From NCBI GenBank assembly GCA_029378245.1, contig JARKIF010000016.1, forward strand, positions 1,240,001 through 1,304,000: 64,000 nucleotides of DNA. Reading direction: 5' to 3'. Made by a program: the position numbers and the translations under genes. The notes under the pieces are model-generated. The model was not told the DNA's origin. It saw nothing but the letters and a program-made list of their open reading frames with translations, and searched no databases. Source of the DNA: Roridomyces roridus. Its lineage: Eukaryota > Basidiomycota > Agaricomycetes > Agaricales > Mycenaceae. Positions 346 to 59,864 of the stretch are shown here, in pieces; within the stretch, counting starts at the first letter, position 1, and each line of letters opens with the position of its first letter.

Positions 346-1717
346 CTAGAGAACTGACTCACATGAGATTTCTCCCTCGGGTCCGACATGAACATGTATT
401 CCAGCCGCTGCAAAGTCGCGTATCGCCCCGACGACATCGGGAGTGGGTGCCAGCGCCATGTCCACCGACTCTGAGCCCCACAACAATTGAAGGGCGCGCA
501 TCGGCGGGCGAGGCGAAGCGTGCCACGCATAGAGAGCATTGAGAACGTGCTGATACGTCCAGGCGTTGCTAGGTTGTCGTCCTCGCAGCGTCAAGATGCT
601 GAGGTTCCAAAACATGTCGGAACTGCTGAGATCGTTCATGAGGGATACGACGAGGTTATCCTCCTCGGCGTCGGATAGGCAGCGTAAATCGAGCTCTGTT
701 GCATGGGGGAGCAGCCCAGAAAGGTCGTATAATGGAAGGCGGGTAAGGAATGTCATAGAGAAGGAGCGCAGCGGGGAGGGCGACCTCTGCAGAAAGGCGA
801 GGATGTGCCCAAGATCCGCTTCGTCTTGGCAATATCCAATCACCAGGCGTTCCAGGGAGGGGAGATTGAGATGGCGAAGAAGGCCCGCTATACGGAAGGA
901 TGCCCCCTCGACAAATCGACCTAGGTGCAATATTTTGAGATTGTCGTGTGTCGATGTATTGTGGAGGTTGGCTGGGAGTGTTCGGAAGGATATCTTGTCC
1001 ACGACGAATTCGATTGCGTTTGGGAAGCATTCCAGCAACCGGGCGCAGGTCCAAGCATCCCTTTCGTACCACTGGGAGACACTCCACCCCGAGGACGAAA
1101 CTGGATTCTTTTCCTGGCCGATGGTCACAGTTTCGATAAAGGGAAATGGAGCGTGTAAATCGGGAGTCTGAAACCACTCTGGCTCTGGTTTGTTGGGAAA
1201 GTACAACTCCAGATTCCGTACACGAGCCTCCAACTGCGACTGGATCACGGGGCTCAGCGCGTACAGTTCTCCGTGTAGCGACATGCGTAGCGGCAGGTTG
1301 CCCGCACGAGCAATCCACAAGTTCACCAGCAACTCGAACTTTGGACGGACGATGGTGGGAATACTGATTCCAGTCCACAAGGCGGGCGTGGACAGTGCAA
1401 TCTTGCGCCATGAGCGAGACACCCCGAGGAATAGCAGAGGAACAGCGGTGATGTCGGGTTTCGGGATACCGCCTTCGGGCAGGCACAGAACGAGGACGGC
1501 CGATGAAATGTCCCGCGGAAATCTCGCAAATGGGTCGAGAATCGTGTTCAGTTGCCCTTCAGAACATTAGCTTGTCGACTTGACGATCAAGACAAATCTT
1601 CCTGCCTTGGGTAATGCTCAGTTCTTTCTCAAGATTTGCCAAGACTTGTCGTTGATCCGCTATCTGTGAGGAGAGCTCGTGGATTCGAGTGCGGAGTTCT
1701 CTTTCCCTGGGAGGCAT
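346..1717 (-). CDS. F-box/LRR-like protein, copy 1
   Basis: This is a member of the large agaricomycete F-box-like family, presumed to select substrates for SCF ubiquitin ligases (family knowledge). The start at 1717 opens a coiled-coil-like segment (RELRTRIHELSSQIADQRQV). After a frame change comes the F-box-like stretch (FARFPRDISSAVLVLCLPE), then SRSWRKIALSTPALW and leucine-rich repeats to the stop at 346. The two frames join only if a very short 37-nt intron (GTCTTG...CTAAT...AAG, about 1599-1563) is spliced; otherwise there is a frameshift. It is nearly identical to the gene at 27719-29079 on the other strand. The divergent SDR starts 506 bp away. The large ORF is certain; the 5' exon is uncertain. 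Confidence 0.75.
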
Positions 1718-27718: not shown

Positions 27719-29079
27719 ATGACTCCCAGGGAAACACAACTCCGCACTCGAATCCACGAGCTCTCCTCACAGATAGCGGACCAACGACAAGTCTTGGCAA
27801 ACCTCGAGAAAGAACTGAGCGTTACCCAAGGCAGGAAGATTTTGTCTTGATCGTCAAGTCGACAAGCTAATGTTCTGAAGGGCAACTGAACACGATCCTC
27901 GACCCATTTGCGAGATTTCCGCGGGACATTTCATCGGCCGTCCTCCTTCTGTGCCTGCCCGAAGGCGATATCCCGAAAACCGACATCGCCGCTGTTCCTC
28001 TGCTATTCCTCGGGGTGTCTCGCTCATGGCGCAAGATTGCACTGTCCACGCCCGCCTTGTGGACTGGAATCAGTATTCCCACCATCGTCCGTCCAAAGTT
28101 CGAGTTGCTGGTGAACTTTTGGATCGCACGTGCGGGCAGCCTGCCGCTACGCATGTCGCTGCACGGAGAACTGTACGCGTTGAGCCCCGTTATCCAGTCG
28201 CACTTGGAGGCTCGTGTGCACAGTCTCGAGTTGTACTTTCCCAACAAACCAGAGCCAGAGTGGTTTCAGACTCCCGATTTACACGCTCCATTTCCCTTTA
28301 TCGAAACTGTGACCATCGGCCAGGAAAAGAATCCAGTTTCGTCCTCTGGATGGAGTTTCTCCCAGTGGTACGAAAGGGATGCTTGGACGTGCACCCGACT
28401 GCTGGAATGTTTCCCCAACGCAGTCGAATTCGTTGTGGACAAAATATCCTTCCGAACACTCCCAGCCAACCTCCACAATACATCGACACACGACAATCTC
28501 AAAATATTGCACCTAGGTCGATTTGTCGAGGGGGCATCCTTCCGTGTAGCGGGCCTTCTTCGCCATGTCAATCTCCCCTCCCTGGAACGCCTGGAGATTG
28601 GATATTGCCAAGACGAAGCGGATCTTGGGCACATCCTCGCCTTTCTGCAGCGGTCGCCCTCCCCGCTGCGTTCCTTCTCCATGACATTCCTTACCCGCCT
28701 TCCATTATACGACCTTTCTGGGCTGCTCCCCCATGTAACAGAGCTCGATTTACGCTGCCTATCCGACGCTGAGAGGGATAACTTCATTGTGTCCCTCATG
28801 AGCGGTCTCAGCAGCTCCGACATGTTTTGGAACCTCAGCAGCTTGACGCTGCGAGGACGACAACCTAGCAACGCCTGGACGTATCAGCACGTTCTCAATG
28901 CTCTCTATGCGTGGCACGCTTCGCCTCGCCCGCCGATGCGCGCCCTTCAATTGTTGTGGGGCCCAGAGTCGGTGGACATGGCGCTGGCACCCACTCCCGA
29001 TGTCGTCGGGGCGATACGCGACTTTGCAGCGGCTGGAATACATATTCATGTCGGGCCCGAGGGAAGAAATTTAATCTGA
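27719..29079 (+). CDS. F-box/LRR-like protein, copy 2
   Basis: Nearly identical to copy 1 on the opposite strand. The main ORF runs through VSRSWRKIALSTPALW and leucine-rich repeats to a TGA at 29077-29079. The last residues differ (GRNLI here; GEISCESVL in copy 1). The presumed start ATG at 27719 opens TPRETQLRTRIHELSSQIAD. A run of four T at 27840-27843 (three in copy 1) puts the 5' coding stretch out of phase with the only plausible short intron. The 5' exon is therefore probably broken here, or translation begins elsewhere. The F-box-like part (FARFPRDISSAVLLLCLPE) is intact in the main frame. Confidence 0.72.
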
Positions 29080-50257: not shown

Positions 50258-52361
50258 TCAGTAATCACAGGCGTCGAACGCGTCGTGCACCAGCTTGTTG
50301 AAAACGGGAGTTCCGATCCCAGCTAAAAAACCCAACAAATTTCAGTAATCATTTTTCGAGCACCGACGATAAACTCACTCAATGCGTCCCATCCTTTCAC
50401 CGCTTCAAATGCAACCTTACATAATACCGTTTAGCCACTTCGTATTTCGTTGCACCAAACAAAACTCACCGACGAAGCAGGACACAAGAAACCAGGGTTT
50501 CTCCCAGCAGTAATATCAGTAAACGACACCTGATTCTTGTACAACCACGGATTGAGGAACCCCAAACGCTCCTTGCCAGCCGAGATCAACCGATCGTTGA
50601 CGAGCGCGATAATCGAAGCAAATGTCGGTGCCGAGAGACTCGTTCCCCCGATCTTGGAGTTCAACTTTTGCGAAATGAAAGCAAAGTTGTTGCCCTGGAC
50701 GGCGACGTCGGGGTATCCGCGACCTGTTCTGTTGAATGTCCCGGGAAAGTCTTGGGGGATAGTGGAGAGGAAGCTCTCGACGGCAGAGTCTTGGTACCAT
50801 GGGCGGGGGAAGATGTTGGAAAAGCCGCCACTTGTGAGATTGACTGCGATCTCGGGACTAAAGCCCTGCGTTCCACCGACGGCCGTGACCCAAGGACAGG
50901 AAGAGGGGAACACGGGGATGAAGGTGGTCAAGTCGCATTGTGTGCTGTTGTCGTGGTTTCCGCGTACACCACCCTGGCGGAGAGTTAGAAGGTATCCATG
51001 ATGAAAGGGGGTGCTCACATCTCCAGCAGCGAAGATGACAGAGATTCCACGCGCTCCCAAGCTCATGAAACCATTACAAAGCTTTCTGTTCCCACGGTTC
51101 AACAATCGGATCAAAGGCAAGAAACGTGCTTACTTTGCCAGAGCATCCCCGACTTCAATTTCGTTGAATGCAAAAGACGTCGAAATCACCGAAGGCGGAT
51201 CATCCAGTCCTTCGAGGAAAGAAATCATATCCATAAACTGTGTTTGAAGCTCGCCGCCTCCAAGCGCTAAAAAGTCAACAGGAATACCAGTCGCCAGTCC
51301 TGTTCGAGTTACTTAGCCTTCCATCGTGCATACAAGTAGCAAAATGCCTCTCTCACCGACTGAATATTGTATGTCGAGATCAGCCTCTAGCAAGAAAACA
51401 TCGAACGCGCTCGAATTCGTCGAATTCGTGCCGAATGATCCGTCTCCCAGTCTGATCAAATCGACTCCCGTATCGCGCGGCATGTCTGGGCGGAATTTCT
51501 CCAGAAAGTCCTGTGCGAACACTAATTCAGTGCAACTGGGTAGAGTGAACGGCGATAAATACCGAAAGGGATTCTGGCGAAGTGAAGTGCCTTGGAAACC
51601 CGTCACAAGCAGCCTATTGTTCTTCGTGCGAAACCGGGTGGGCGTCTTGGGAATCCCGTAAAGCTCCTGCAAACAGCTGGGGGTGATCGCGCCGTTCGGA
51701 TCACTGGTGTTACACGATGCCGCAGGCTGAGCCGGAGTCCATCTCTGCTGTAAGCCGGCGGGGTGGACCGCTGAAAGAGGCGAGTCTGCAGAGGCGAAGA
51801 AATTCGTGCTGGGGTAGATCACCTCGACGTGTCCCACAAGTTCCGGAGGGAGGGAAATCGACAACGTGCGGGTGATCGGATGCGCGAGCGCGCGATGGGA
51901 GTATTTTTCGTATCGCGTACCAAAGAGTTTGTTGGCTTGGGAGACCGGTAGTGTCAGTGAGACCCAGTCGTTGTGCGGGGAGATTGAGGTCGCGTTGAGT
52001 GCGTTTGCCGTGGCGAATCGGTTGAACGCAGCGAGCGTCTCTGACGAAGGCTCTACAAACGATTTGATCTGTGCATCTGTGTCAGCCTATTCCGCTAGAA
52101 AAACAACGGTCAACGCACCTCCTCTGTTGACAGCCATTGCCTAAACACGGCAGTTCCGGGGGTTGAAATAGACCTCATCGTCTCTTCGAGGCCGGTGATG
52201 TTCTTGGCAGTCAAGGCCAATCGCAGAGTAAGTTGCTCACTCTCAGGCGCTGCCCCACGACGGACGAATCCAGCGGGGGCGACTGCACGACTCTCATGCA
52301 AAGTGAGCCCTGAGACCGATGCGATGAGAGCGAGGATGTGGAGGAGGTTGGACAGTGGCAT
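50258..52361 (-). CDS. Sedolisin (S53) tripeptidyl peptidase, copy 1
   Basis: A secreted acid serine-carboxyl protease. The start at 52361 gives a signal peptide (MPLSNLLHILALIASVSGLT). The activation prodomain (LRLALTAKNITGLEETMRSI, then AVFRQWLSTEEV) continues through PVSQANKLFG. The catalytic core has Glu and Asp in FLLEADLDIQY, the oxyanion Asp near GARGISVIFAAGD, and the nucleophile Ser in GGTSLSAPTFAS. The calcium-site end is NPGFLCPASS...GIGTPVFNKLVHDAFDACDY. TGA is at 50260-50258. Several short introns are present. It appears intact. The paralog is at 57749-59864, on the other side of the hydrophobin gene. Confidence 0.92.
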
Positions 52362-53196
52362 GAGGATGAAGTTCTCCGGAATTGCATGTTGGGCGCTATA
52401 AAAACGTTCAGCATGGGTGGACGCCAAACCTGTGCAGCAAGGCATCACGACGTAAATGCGTTTCAAAATTCAACCGATACCCGGTGCCAGCGCCCGCGCC
52501 CGCGCAAGGGTCTACGAAGCTAGAACATCGCTGCTTAATCGTCGTTGTATCAAGTGATCTTCAAAGCCCCAGTTAGTTGTAAATAGACGCAGTTCTGACC
52601 TGCCGCCGAACCCAAGACCGTGAATCGACTTCAAGTCGGCGTTTTCCGCATGCCGATACAGTGACCAGGGTAAGTAAAGTTATGTGATGACAGATCCGAA
52701 AGGTAACGGACTCGGAGGAATACGGACTCGGAGGAACACATACAAGCGAGAGATGATGAGAAGCCGAGAGCGTGTAGAGACGCCAAGCTACTGATTCTGC
52801 CGCGACGGGTGGCTGTAGAGTCCTTTACACTCCGGGAATTACCCACCTCCACCGAGAGCCAGATGAACGAAGATGAAATTAGAAGACATGAAGGCGACCA
52901 TTTGATGGCTGGCGAAACTCTCGTGTTGAACTTGCACTGCCGATTCGGAGGGCGTTGGACTGGGCCTGAGGGAACACACAAAAGAATTGTATTCAAGAGG
53001 GTAGCTACATTAGAACATTCAATCCAGACCGTATTCGTATACTTATCGAGGGAGAGTGGAAGGTGTGAGACTTGTAGAGTATCTTCGTAATCATATGTAC
53101 TCGTTCAGAGAGAAGAAATGTGATACATGAGTCGTTACGTTCATTCGTCTAGGCGCCGCTGGGAGTCGCGGTAGTCCACGGAGACACTTGAATCAT
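52362..53196. other. Intergenic, protease 1 promoter and hydrophobin 3' side
   Basis: An 835-bp gap between two minus-strand genes. The largest ORF here (52809-53090, plus) has no recognisable domain and no splice support. Nothing else was seen. Confidence 0.4.
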
Positions 53197-56100
53197 CTAT
53201 GAGTCGCCGTGGTTCCACTCGAAGGGTCCAATCTCACCTGGGCTGCAATCCAAACCCGTCGTATCATCCTCAAGAGGGTCGCAGCACTGCGCAGCGACAT
53301 CCCCTTCGTTGCTGAGAAACAATGAGTACTTGTGCTCCTTCATCAGCCTCAAAACAAGAAAACTACTCACCAAACTTGCATCCCACGCAACACCATGATG
53401 GGCGAGCACTCAATCCCAATAATACTACCCACACCCACTTGTCCGTTGATCCCAATTGCCTTGGCTAGGCTCTTGCAACAGAAAGTCGCCGTGGAGGTGC
53501 ATGTACCCGTGGGGGTGGACGGGGTGGGTTGTGCGGAGGGCGATGCACCAGAAACGGAGGTAGGAACAGATGCAGCTGGAAGAAGATGAGCTCAAAGTCC
53601 TATATCGAAACGGAAGACTCACCGAGACTACTGGCAGGGTGGGAAACAATGCTCGACGACGCAACGGGGAGAGAGGACCCAGCCAAACCGCTAGCACCCA
53701 CACGAGCTGAGGAGGCAGCAACGGAGGAAGACGGAGCGGTGGCACCGGAGGCGGCGCTAGGCACAAAGAAAATGGTGGAAGCCTGAGCGGCGGCCGAGGA
53801 GACGGCTGTGGAGCTGGCCTTGACAGCAGGGACCGAAGAAGCCGGCGCGGATGCAGCGACAGAGCTGGCTGCTTTAACAGACGATGCGGCAACAGACGAA
53901 ACCGGCGCGGATGCAGCAGCAGAGCTGGCTGGTTTCACTGATGAAGCAGGGGCTGACGAAACCGGCACGGAGGCAGCAACAGAGCTGGCTGCTTTGGCTG
54001 ATGAAGCAGCAACAGAGGAGACAGGTGCTGAAGCTGCGACAGAGCTGGCTGGTTTCGCTGATGAAGCAACAACCGAAGAAACCGGTGCGGATGCCGCGAC
54101 AGAGCTGGCTGCTTTCACTGATGAAGCAGGGGCTGACGAAACTGGCGCGGACGCGACGACGGAGCTGGCTGGTTTGGCTGAAGAAGCCGCAACAGATGAC
54201 ACCGGTGCGGAGGCAGCGACAGAACTGGCTGGTTTCGCTGACGAAGCAGGGGCTGACGAAACTGGCGCGGACGCGACGACGGAGCTGGCTGGTTTGGCTG
54301 AAGAAGCCGCAACAGATGACACCGGTGCGGAGGCAGCGACAGAACTGGCTAGTTTCGCTGACGAAGCAGGGGCCGAAGAAACCGGTGCGGATGCAGCGAC
54401 AGAACTGGATGCTTTGCCTGACGACGCAACAACAGACGAAACCGGCGCGGAGGCGGCGACGGAGCTGGCTGCTTTAACAGATGAAGCAGGGGCGGAAGAA
54501 GCTGGCACGGATGCAGCGACAGAACTGGCTGGCTTGGCTGATGAAGCAACAACAGACGAAACCGGTGCAGGGGCCGAAGAAGCCGGCGCAGAGGCAGCAA
54601 CTGAGCTAGCTGGTTTGGCCGATGAAGCAACAACTGACGAAGCCGGCGTGGATGCAGCAACAGAACTGGCTGGTTTCACTGATGAAGCAGGGGCTGACGA
54701 AACCGGTGTGGAGGCAGCAACAGAGCTGGCTGCTTTGGCTGACGAAGCAGCAACAGAGGAAACCGGTGCTGAAGCTGCGACAGAGCTGGCTGCCTTCACT
54801 GACGAAGCAGGGGCCGAAGAAGCCGGCGCGGAGGCAGCAACAGAACTGACTGGTTTGGCCGATGAAGCAACAACAGAGGAAACCGGCGCGGAGGCAGCCA
54901 CAGAGCTGGCTGCTTTAACAGATGAAGCAACAACAGATGAAGCAGGTGCAGGGGCTGAAGAAACTGGCACGGAGGCAGCGGCAGAGCTGGATGGTTTGGC
55001 TGAAGAGGCAGCCACCGATGACACCGGTGCGGAGGCAGCAACGGAGCTGGCTGGTTTCACTGAGGAAGCAGGGGCCGATGAAGCCGGTGCGGATGCTGCA
55101 ACGGAACTAGCTGCCTTCACTGACGAAGCAGGGGCTGAAGAAGCCGGCATGGATGGAGCGACAGAGCTCGCTGGTTTGGCTGATGAAGCAGCAACTGACG
55201 ACACCGGCGCGGAGGCAGCGATAGAGCTGGCTGCTTTCACCGACGAAGCAGGGGCCGAAGACGCCGGTGCGGATGCTGCAACAGAGCTGGATGGTTTGGC
55301 TGATGAAGCAGCAACAGACGACACCGGTGCAGAGGCAGCCACAGAGCTGGCTGCTTTCACTGATGAAGCAGGGGCCGAAGACGCCGGCGCAGATGGAGCG
55401 GCGGAACTGGCTGGCTTGGCTGAAGAAGCAGCAACAGATGAGACCGGCGCAGAGGCAGCCACAGAGCTGGCTGGCTTGACCGATGAAGCAGGGGCCGACG
55501 AAACCGGTGCAGATGCAGCAACAGAGCTGGCTGGTTTGGCTGAAGAAGCAGCAACCGATGACACCGGCGTGGAGGCAGCAACAGAGCTGGCTGGCTTGAC
55601 CGATGAAGCAGGGGCCGACGAAACCGGTGCAGATGCAGCAACAGAGCTGGCTGGTTTGGCTGAAGAAGCAGCAACCGATGACACCGGCACGGAGGCAGCA
55701 ACAGAGCTGGCTGCTTTCACTGACGAAGCAGGGGCCGAAGACGCCGGTGCGGAAGCTGCAACAGAACTGGCTGGTTTGGCTGATGAAGCGACACCAGACG
55801 AAACCGGCGCGGAGGCACCGACAGAGCTGGCTGCTTTCACCGACGAAGCAGGGGCCGAAGAAGCTGGCGCGGATGGAGCGGCGGAACTAGCTTTGACTGA
55901 CGAGGCCGCCGCGGAGGAAGCGGGCGCTGACGCTGCGACGGAGCTCGCTTTGACTGACGATGCAGCCGCTGAGGACACGGGTGCTGACGCTGCGACGGAG
56001 CTCGCTTTGACTGACGATGCAGCAACAGAGGAAGCGGGCGCTGACGCTGCGACAGAGCTCGCTTTAACAGACGATGCAGCAGCTGATGAAACCGGTGCAG

Positions 56101-56860
56101 ATACTGGAGCGGAGCTGGCCTTCAAAGATGAGGCCGCCACCGAAGAAGCCGCCGCTGAGCTGGCCTTTACTGACGAGGCAGCGGCTGAGGACGCCGCCGC
56201 CGAGCTAAGCTTCACCGAGGACACAACGCTGCTAGAACGAGCGGACGACACAGGGGCGGTGGTGGGTGTAATTGTCGTCGGACTGGACTTCACAGAAGAC
56301 GCAGAGGAGCTGGGACGAACGGTCGATGCCGATGCGGGGGCGGGAGATGGGCAGGCCTGAGTACCGGTGGTGACTGCAAATTGTCGTCAGCCTCGTCTTC
56401 GGTGCTATAGAGGATAATACTCACTGTGAGTGCAGTCGATGGCGATCCCGGCCAAGTCAAGTATATTGTCGCAGCATGTAGCCTGGTGATTGTTATTGGG
56501 ACTAGAAAAAGAAATGAGAAGCGGTCACGCGAAGAAAGGAATCGCGACGTACCAAGTACTCCCAGTGGCAGGCGCGCATCCAACACCGATCTGACTTCCA
56601 CGAGCCTCGTTGCCAACGTTGTAGCCTCCGAGGAGCTTCTCGATGTCGACGCCAGCCGTGGAGATGAAGGAATCGCAGCAGAAGGTCTTGCGTGTGCAAC
56701 CTAGACGATGTCAGCTTCATCCTGGTATGTAAAGATATCACGTACTCGAGCTACCTCGAGCATCTAAACCGCCTCCACCGCGGGGTTGAGTACTAAGAAC
56801 TGCCCCATGGACATTGAATGCGAGAGCAGTGGATAAGACGAGGAGAGAATGAGACCGCAT
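53197..56860 (-). CDS. Two-headed class I hydrophobin with giant Ser/Ala/Pro repeat linker
   Basis: The exons are 56860-56746, 56700-56553, 56501-56425, 56373-53623, 53575-53371 and 53311-53197. They total 3411 nt and 1136 residues. Residues 1-20 are a signal peptide (MRSHSLLVLSTALAFNVHGA). Hydrophobin domain 1 has cysteines at about 40, 46-47, 80, 88, 97-98 and 111 (CTRKTFCC, IGVGCAP, C-x8-CC, IDC). Residues about 121-1040 are SSVAASAPVSSAPASSVKPA-type repeats. Hydrophobin domain 2 has cysteines at 1056, 1063-1064, 1087, 1099, 1108-1109 and 1121 (CTSTATFCC, IGIECSPI, VCNEGDVAAQCCD). Introns split both domains at the fifth cysteine (TG|T, TG|C). Hydrophobins self-assemble at air-water and wall surfaces; the linker role is inferred. 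Confidence 0.85.
53881..55880 (-). repeat. 60-nt coding minisatellite, about 33 units
   Basis: The pattern keeps an exact 60-bp register over about 2 kb: on the plus strand, GGAGGCAGCAACAGAGCTGG plus a GCTGATGAAGCAGG-type part recur at the same offset. Two alternating unit types make a 120-nt higher-order unit. Near-identical 120-nt pairs at 54121-54240/54241-54360 and about 55441-55560/55561-55680 show recent unit duplication. All units keep the hydrophobin reading frame. From 55880 to 56220 related but shorter, degenerate units continue. Confidence 0.9.
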
Positions 56861-57748: not shown

Positions 57749-59864
57749 CTAAAGCACTAATGCAGCGTTGAACAGTTTGCCGAACACAGGTGTACCGAGC
57801 CCAGCTAAAAGCTCGTCAGATCCATAGCTTTCCAACCATTACTTGAAGACTTACTCAGCGCATCCCATCCTTTCACTGCCTCGAATGCAACCTTGAAATG
57901 ACTCAATTCATAAACATCTCGCTTCCGAGGCAGCTCACAGATGACGCAGGACACATGGATCCTGGGTTGTTGCCCGCGGTGATATCAGTGAACGCAGCTT
58001 GATTTTGATAAAGCCACGGATTGAGAAACCCCAAGCGCTCCTTCCCGACAGACAGCAGCCTATCGTTGATCAGCGCAACAATAGCAGCGAACACAGGCGT
58101 CGAAAAACTGGTTCCCCCAAGCTTGAAACCGACGAGGCCTTGAGATATGAATGCAAAGTTGTTTGCCTGCAGAGACACATCAGGGTATCCGCGCCCCGCT
58201 CTGTTGAACGTCCCGACAAAGTCTTCGGGGATGGTTGAGAGGAAGCGCTCCACCGCGGTGAGTTGGTACGCCGGTCGAGGGAAGAAAGCGGAGAAACCGC
58301 CGCCGGTGAGGTTGAGAGCGATTTCTGGATTGAAGCCTTGCGTGCCGCCGACGGATGTCACCCATGGACACGACGCAGGAAATACCTTGTTTGGTCATTC
58401 AATATTCAATAATCATCAGATCTTGGCCATCTGTATCGTACCGGAATGAACGCAGTCGAGTTGCATTGTGTGGGGTCGTCGTGGGTTCCGCGCACACCGC
58501 CCTGGGATAAAGTAAGCAGTCTGGTAAAGACAGATGACACAGACCAACATCTCCAGAAGCGAAAAGCACCGAAATTCCACGCGCACCCAGAGCTGAATAC
58601 CCATCACAAAGTTTCCTGCATAGAAGGTTCAAGAGAGTCGGCAAGATGAGGGCCCGGCTCACTTTGTCAGCGAGAACCCGAGGTCTTCTTCGCTGAATAC
58701 GTAGGATGTACTCATCACTGAAGGTGGATCTTCCATAGCCTCAAGGAAAGAAATTGTGTCTAACAAGCCGGTGGGCAACGACGAATCATCCAGTCCGCCG
58801 ACTGACAAGAACTGTATAGAAACTCCAGCCGCAAGACCTAATTGAATTGCATGAAATTAAAGAATCGTAACCAGTTCAAGGGACTCACCGACTGCATATT
58901 GTATGTCGAGATCCGCCTCGAATGAATAGATATCAAACGACCCATTGCTAGTGAAATTGGCATTGTCGATTTTAATCAAATCGAACCCCGTATCTCGCGA
59001 AATGTCGGGTCGGAAATCTTGCAGAAACTCCTGAACAGTTGGTAAGTAATGGCGACATCCGGGAGAGAAGCCCCACGCACGGAGAGTGACTCCCGCGATG
59101 GAGATCTGCCTTCGTATCCGGTGACCAGCAGTCTATTATCCCTCCGAGAAGCCGAGGGTGTCGACGGAATGTCGTACAGGCTCTGTAAACACGACGGGGT
59201 CATTTCGCCGGCGGGGTCGCTGGTATTACACGATGGATCGGTCGTTCCTTTCTTCAGACTCAAGCCACGGCCAACGGACGGAGGTTTGGAGGGGGTGAAG
59301 AAGGCTGTACCAGGATAAATGGCCTCCACATGCCCGACAAGCTCAGACGGGAGGGAAATCGAAAGCGTGCGCATGACGGGCTGGGTGAGCCGGGGATGAC
59401 GGAATCTCTTGTATTGTGCACCGAAGAGTGTGTTGGCACGGGAGACCGGAAGGGTCAACGAAACCCAGTCGCCGTGAGGGGAGATTGATGTTGCGTTGAG
59501 CTCATTGGCCACAGCGAACAAATTGAACGCTTCGAGAGTCTCGGAAGAAGGTGAAACGAAGGCTTTGATCTATTCAGTGTGAGCAATTGACCCAAGAAAG
59601 GGGCACTCCACACACCTCGTCGGCCGACAGCCACTGCCTGAAAACAGGGTCTCCCGGGGTAGAGATGGACGTCAAGATATCCTGAAGACCGGAGACGTTC
59701 TGGCTGGTCAACGCAATGCGCAAGGTGATGTCGTCGTTTGTCGGGACTGAACCCTGGTCGATGAATCCAGGAGCGGCGGCAGCACGACTCTCATGTTGAA
59801 AAAGGGAGCTGGCTAAAACCGAGGCGGAAAGGATGAGAAGCTTAAAGAGGTTCGATAGAGTCAT
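57749..59864 (-). CDS. Sedolisin (S53) tripeptidyl peptidase, copy 2
   Basis: The start at 59864 gives a signal peptide (MTLSNLFKLLILSASVLASS). The prodomain runs through ITLRIALTSQNVSGLQDILT and PVFRQWLSADEV. The core has FEADLDIQYAVG (Glu, Asp), GARGISVLFASGD and the Ser in GGTSFSTPVFAA. The end is NPGSMCPASS and GLGTPVFGKLFNAALVL, with TAG at 57751-57749. The intron after RESLS (GTGCGT...TTCAG) joins to EFLQDFRPDISRDTG in phase 0. The C-terminus lacks the FDACDY ending of copy 1. Otherwise the two proteases are close paralogs. It looks functional. Confidence 0.9.

Follow-up and report, generated by a model that had tools for sequence, protein, structure and literature searches.

Hydrophobins are usually regarded as small single-domain proteins, each coating a single surface. 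Several linked hydrophobin domains per chain are found in CFTH1 (three heads) and CPPH1 (five heads) of Claviceps and in relatives from Fusarium and Trichoderma; the available part of a recent survey counts 126 multidomain hydrophobins of class II, biased to Fusarium, Trichoderma, Gibberella and Claviceps, and 12 of class I, biased to Fusarium, and describes the Claviceps linkers as Gly/Asp repeats (Yang et al. 2025, PMC12375992). In the basidiomycete Ustilago maydis, Hum3 (and Rep1) combines a long repeat region with a hydrophobin domain, and Hum3 has, in the accessible sections of its description, one such domain and 17 amphipathic repeats of 31-36 residues, 14 of which are parted by putative Kex2 motifs (PMC4617103). 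Here we analyze a 64,000-nucleotide (nt) stretch of the genome of the basidiomycete Roridomyces roridus (assembly GCA_029378245.1, contig JARKIF010000016.1, positions 1,240,001 to 1,304,000; the whole stretch is called the window, and its contig C68), in which one gene is predicted to encode a single chain in which a long repeat linker joins two terminal class I hydrophobin modules, or heads.

As far as the survey text at hand goes, the Claviceps polyhydrophobins and their kin are mostly class II proteins of ascomycetes with Gly/Asp-rich linkers, whereas the R. roridus chain appears to be of class I, comes from a basidiomycete and has a linker of 944 residues consisting mostly of Ser/Ala/Val/Pro repeats (PMC12375992). 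The original prediction had taken polyhydrophobins to be class II proteins, a view that the 12 class I examples in print correct (PMC12375992). Unlike Hum3, the R. roridus chain carries two heads, and its linker is free of KR and RR; it is not of the Hum3/repellent type. Each head shares its eight-cysteine pattern with single-domain class I hydrophobins (e.g. the solved structures 5w0y and 2nbh, which we take to be mushroom class IB proteins), which are ~100 residues long and have no linker. With 1,136 or 1,141 residues and two heads, the chain is not the small single domain of class I hydrophobins and, judged by gene model and selection, would have the multi-domain organization of polyhydrophobins. 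A long-linker family in a basidiomycete very likely extends the known polyhydrophobins and is unusual in its size and number within one genome; no description of a basidiomycete polyhydrophobin with long serine-rich linkers was found in the literature searched, most subscription journals lying outside it.

Gene model and exon structure

The locus is best read as encoding a single chain with two class I heads flanking a long repeat linker, a reading with a probability of about 0.9 on sequence grounds; it draws on exon structure, selection, paralogues and family profiles, and these also uphold the two-headed class I assignment first made for the gene. On the minus strand (56860-53197), six exons separated by five GT-AG introns of 45, 51, 51, 47 and 59 nt (introns 1-5) give an open frame of 1,136 amino acids. 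The chain starts with a hydrophobic, signal-like N-terminus, a putative signal peptide judged by eye, and continues through an eight-cysteine N head, the linker and an eight-cysteine C head (cysteines are numbered C1 to C8 within each head). The introns have phases 1, 2 and 1 about the N head and 1 and 2 about the C head, and the phase-2 intron falls within the C5 codon in both heads. An intron that splits the C5 codon after TG can also be seen by eye in ordinary R. roridus hydrophobins.

The layout of six exons, two eight-cysteine heads and one 2751-nt repeat exon proposed in the original prediction holds: all junctions are GT-AG, the frame is open over 1,136 residues, and a paralogue on contig C79 (C79A) shares the layout. 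The accompanying claim that the exons stay in phase only when both heads are included was too strong, as read-through of intron 3 or intron 4 also gives a frame, which ends early. The predicted end of the gene stands in part. The frame is indeed open to 53197, but the last exon is probably split by a sixth intron, giving a seventh exon that ends at 53141 and a chain of 1,141 residues. This intron is supported by its length in C79A (42 versus 41 nt), a difference that in coding sequence would cause a frameshift, and by the similar tails of the two genes. Lying past C8 of the C head, it would also complete the symmetry of the gene, with the same phase and place as the intron past C8 of the N head. 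The stop codon of the six-exon model overlaps the proposed acceptor of intron 6, and going by the sequence both endings are possible.

The comparison with C79A, which has the same junctions, carries much of the argument. Over the first six exons, the two genes differ in length by 6, 9, 0, 930, 78 and 0 nt, all multiples of three, whereas five of the six differences between intron lengths (45/44, 51/56, 51/51, 47/48, 59/52 and 41/42 nt in C68/C79A) are not, which puts the gene model beyond chance. Plain identity cannot separate exons from introns (62 to 86% in introns, 80 to 84% in the N-head exons), and the argument therefore rests on these length differences and on the kind of change. The C head is the most constrained part of the chain, with a nonsynonymous rate (dN) of 0.07, a synonymous rate (dS) of 1.18 and a dN/dS of 0.06 over 68 codons (Fisher 3.7e-13). 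The N head (74 codons) gave a dS of 0.54, a dN of 0.18 and a dN/dS of 0.34 (Fisher 0.0015), and the linker end encoded by exon 5 (24 codons) a ratio of 0.12 (Fisher 2e-4); for the signal and tail (38 codons), the ratio of 0.49 was not significant (Fisher 0.14).

Table 1. Exons and selected introns of the predicted two-headed gene, in window coordinates
Feature	Position	Strand	Content
Exon 1	56860-56746	-	Signal-peptide-like start (MRSHSLLVLSTALAFNVHGAV...) and short tail preceding the N head; counterpart in C79A
Exon 2	56700-56553	-	N head, C1 to C4
Exon 3	56501-56425	-	N head, C5 (split TG|T, phase 2) to C8
Intron 3	56424-56374	-	Phase 1, directly past C8; contains the stop of the public 119-residue model
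Exon 4	56373-53623	-	Extra cysteine 121 followed by the linker and its repeat units, consensus KPASSVAASAPVSSVPASSA; 2751 nt
Exon 5	53575-53371	-	Linker end and C head, C1 to C4
Exon 6	53311-53238 (53311-53197 in the six-exon model)	-	C head, C5 (split TG|C, phase 2) to C8
Probable intron 6	donor 53237, acceptor 53197	-	41 nt, phase 1, past C8; 42 nt in C79A
Probable exon 7	53196-53141	-	Tail DDSSVSVDYRDSQRRLDE and stop; C79A counterpart tail DDCSVSVEHSDWECRLNQRT

Relatives, heads and linker

The layout had been put forward as having no described equivalent; it is not a singleton but belongs to a family in the same genome with two, three and seven heads. The two-headed genes are the C68 gene (with a copy on contig C449), C79A and C79B, the latter two lying in tandem on C79 in the same orientation, ~5 kb apart, with the exon layout of C68; at the junction of linker and C head of C79B, a phase-1 intron can plausibly be placed in three ways, one of which would be GC-AG. 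A three-headed gene on C312 was modelled at ~1,900 residues, and its last head lies within a 526-residue open frame that also contains serine-rich linker, a finding independent of the model finder. Judged by head positions among the best candidates, the three-head layout occurs at seven of the eight places with a last head (C312, C458, C246, C248 and three places on contig C1), where first, middle and last heads follow in order on one strand and the first and last are 5.4 to 6.1 kb apart; at the eighth place, on C325, no other head was among the best candidates. Only the C312 gene was modelled, the layout elsewhere being taken from head positions, and some contig pairs among these places may be haplotypes or redundant.

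Seven-headed genes were modelled on C168 (378500-396500; 3,513 residues) and, as its counterpart, on C346 (103000-119000; 3,697 residues), each with 36 exons; the lengths, taken straight from the finder, are approximate. In each model, 26 of the 35 introns are in phase 1 and 33 are 45-70 nt long. Of the gaps between the two genes, 34 of 35 in exons have a length divisible by three, versus 3 of 26 in introns and flanks, with five mixed gaps set aside and exon boundaries taken from the finder, which saw no alignment. Independently of the models, a single open frame of 385 residues joins C5-C8 of head 1, linker and C1-C4 of head 2 in both genes. The finder used for C168, C346 and C312 gave a bonus to head-like peptides, and its head calls are guided rather than independent; a codon-trained finder without this bonus skipped the heads and was not used. 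Checks by eye showed that the guided finder had set wrong splice sites in the tails of C68 and C79A, at the C-head junctions of C79B and at the first and third introns of C312. In the C168 model, the second halves of heads 3 and 7 are missing or wrong, as is the C4-C5 stretch of head 5 in the C346 model. Other exons that resemble heads, each within an open frame of 172 to 243 residues, were seen at C79:248438-248569, C187:17993-18124 and C135:418413-418556.

Both heads of the C68 gene have the order C-CC-C-C-CC-C of class I hydrophobins. The cysteines of the N head are residues 40, 46, 47, 80, 88, 97, 98 and 111 (spacings 5,0,32,7,8,0,12) and those of the C head residues 1056, 1063, 1064, 1087, 1099, 1108, 1109 and 1121 (spacings 6,0,22,11,8,0,11). 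The proposed profile search of both ends gave a divided answer: family profiles of both ends match hydrophobins, while the single heads miss the Pfam cut-off. When a profile of 11 N-type or internal heads was compared with the PDB, the top four of nine matches were hydrophobins (best 5w0y, 1.6e-5) and the remaining five (E 0.084 or worse) were not. All four matches of a C-type profile, built from six heads that include one cut short and one aberrant, were hydrophobins (best 6e-5), and the two profiles matched each other with a probability of 98.5 (E 2.1e-15). Searched singly, the C head found hydrophobin 6e9m at E 0.07; for the N head, hydrophobin 5w0y (E 1.1) ranked behind a dehydrogenase (E 0.13). 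Among ten paralogous heads, eight matched PF01185 at E <= 1 and two passed its cut-off; one is an N head from C168, scoring 30.2 bits, the other the last head of C312, at 24.5 bits. Over all 12 heads scanned with Pfam, nine matched PF01185 at E <= 1 and two passed its cut-off; one also weakly matched PSP94 (E 0.71), and the class II hydrophobin family was absent from the matches. By family profile, then, both ends are assigned to the class I hydrophobins.

The heads differ in the loop between C7 and C8, which is non-polar in the N head and acidic in the C head. Across the family, 9 of the 11 loops in N-type or internal heads have a hydropathy above zero, and all four C-type loops that could be measured (two of six rows could not) fall below it.

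The linker comprises the 944 residues between C8 of the N head (residue 111) and C1 of the C head (1056), mostly as 20-residue repeats, and consists of S (35%), A (32%), V (14%) and P (10%). Counted from lysine to lysine, there are 39 units, 30 of them exactly 20 residues long; a comparison of positions in these 30, leaving out the nine of other length, found Ser 4, 5, 9, 13, 14, 18 and 19, Lys 1, Pro 11 and Ala 17 invariant. The ratio of nonsynonymous to synonymous differences among repeats (pN/pS) is lowest in the gene's own frame (0.21, with the other five frames ranging from 0.37 to 3.26), and the third codon position is the most variable in that frame (entropy 1.05 versus 0.17 and 0.29). 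The array thus behaves as if it were translated in the frame of the gene with its serine pattern kept. An 857-residue open frame on the opposite strand (53787-56360, +) was considered as an antisense gene and rejected on the same two measures, the best antisense pN/pS being 0.37; we read it as a by-product of codon use. The 1,136-residue chain has no N-glycosylation motif. Serine-rich stretches of fungal proteins can be O-mannosylated, and the tether is probably disordered and O-mannosylated. A lone extra cysteine, residue 121 (56351-56353, -), sits at the base of the linker, is kept in C79A (ITTGTQACPSPAPASAS) and could give disulfides between chains.

Alternative readings

Several observations speak against two class I heads on one chain. 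PF01185 scored 19.2 bits (E 0.002) on the N head alone, under the cut-off of 23; a Pfam scan of the C head gave no match at E <= 1; and a six-frame search of the genome (E <= 0.001) found 21 exon matches, none of them at the two-headed gene or the multi-headed loci. Searches for relatives outside this genome found none: from 65 candidates, the N head retrieved only the R. roridus protein FB45DRAFT_1135775, and no long-protein relative appeared at E <= 10 for the C head (47 candidates) or the middle head of C312 (41 candidates). The heads also vary: the C7-C8 loop is below zero in 2 of the 11 N-type or internal heads, the C3-C4 loop of the C head is 12 residues shorter in C68 than in C79A, and in the last head of C312 C1 is absent and the second CC is replaced by CAC. 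Finally, the only public model found, FB45DRAFT_1135775 (P0001), which is 100% identical to the N-head query over 84% and lies on C449, has 119 residues; it follows the two-headed chain for 113 residues from the start, then enters intron 3 and stops six codons into it. As a separate observation, 14 of the 21 PF01185 exon matches cluster on contig C279 and belong to ordinary hydrophobins.

The public model could also be taken at face value, as one product of a splicing switch. Retention of intron 3 would then yield a free, single-headed hydrophobin of 119 residues and its removal the two-headed chain, and the switch would set the ratio of monomer to cross-linker. FB45DRAFT_1135775 exactly matches the retained form, and in C79A the frame enters intron 3 with the same six codons (SEYYPL) and then continues to a stop. 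Intron 3 is, however, conserved to the same degree as intron 1 (86.3 versus 86.0%) and bears no sign of coding constraint, and we consider such a switch unlikely.

A second alternative accepts the chain as a precursor that is cut after secretion into single heads and linker peptides. There is precedent in fungal repeat proteins such as Ustilago Rep1, cleaved at Kex2 sites according to the portion of the source available (PMC4617103). In the C168 and C346 models a KR lies three residues ahead of C1 of the last head, C312 has RR and KR ahead of its first head, and an adjoining gene of the window encodes a protease with a pro-kumamolisin domain. Against cleavage, no KR or RR occurs in the C68 chain up to C8 of the C head, linker included, its sole such pair being an RR in the proposed exon-7 tail; C79A and the examined pieces of C79B have none, the inter-head linkers of the guided C168 and C346 models none except the KR ahead of the last head, and one KR of C312 sits within the middle head. 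Processing into single heads is, on balance, quite improbable.

Could the locus instead comprise two or three separate genes, namely a single-headed hydrophobin ending in intron 3, a repeat protein and a fragment? The public annotation of the first part would fit, as would the in-frame stops met on reading through introns 3 and 4. The pieces, however, are only 51 and 47 nt apart, too little for a 3' end, a promoter and a 5' end. The sole further in-frame Met before the C head is residue 522, within the array, so that a separate repeat protein would lack a signal peptide, and the C head would be left with no start before C1 despite being under strong purifying selection. The paralogues share the layout, and C168 has parts of two heads in one open exon. 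We give separate genes very little credence.

The copy on C449 bears on the integrity of the array. It encodes 802 residues versus 1,136 in C68, being 334 residues shorter in the repeat, and is identical to C68 over 740 and 1,634 bases near the start, over 609 and 1,023 bases near intron 4 and over a 2,000-base stretch elsewhere. Given this identity in the stretches compared, C449 is possibly a redundant contig with a collapsed array, and two alleles of 1,136 and 802 residues are not claimed. The shorter copy makes the repeat number uncertain, but the intact frame through the whole array in both copies and the selection on both heads leave a mis-assembled array or a decayed gene hardly credible.

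Proposed function and neighbouring genes

With two class I heads on one chain as the preferred reading, we lean towards a single secreted protein that acts at interfaces by looping or bridging, its two heads being joined by a long tether. The chain would be secreted whole, and its heads would settle at hydrophobic-hydrophilic interfaces while the tether remained in water. Like an end-capped associative polymer, a single molecule could then loop on one surface or bridge two, and many such chains could gel into a hydrated, sticky or gel-like coat. By analogy, a bridging or coating function has about even odds. In the model hydrophobin EAS, the C7-C8 stretch drives rodlet growth, according to the available text of the survey (PMC12375992). 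Given the different hydropathy of this loop in the two heads, the ends are probably unequal, with an assembling N head and a conserved C head that behaves differently; assembly may be the task of the N head, and anchoring or binding that of the C head.

In gel-forming mucins, cysteine-rich domains stand around long, Ser-rich, probably glycosylated stretches. The likeness to the two-headed chain is one of layout only; the proteins share no domains and are unrelated. R. roridus is known for a thick slime sheath. In R. pruinosoviscidus, the stipe is described as viscid to glutinous in the part of the account available (PMC12780892). We offer as a tentative proposal, by analogy and with considerable doubt, that the family might form hydrophobin-mucins with two, three or seven unequal class I heads borne on serine-rich tethers that are hundreds of residues long, natural associative polymers that build the glutinous coat of these mushrooms; the assembling heads would link and the glycosylated tethers hold water. 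If this were true, fungi would also build bridging, hydrated materials from the module, which could serve as a template for surface-active gels. The family makes it testable whether, and in what way, multi-headedness matters to rodlet layers and to bonnet-mushroom slime. It also illustrates how a gene of this kind can escape automatic annotation, the sole public model found ending after 113 residues of the chain.

Elsewhere in the window, two similar open frames (CSEGQLNTILDPFARFPRDISSAV...) lie in opposite orientation at 349-1566 (-) and 27871-29076 (+), the former with no Pfam match at 1e-3. The two-headed gene itself is flanked by genes for proteases of the sedolisin (S53) kind at 50437-52086 (-) and 57903-58740 (-). 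The high-side gene had no Pfam match at 1e-3 and was judged by eye; the low-side gene, in which Peptidase_S8 stayed below its cut-off, matched Pro-kuma_activ with an E of 3.8e-19.

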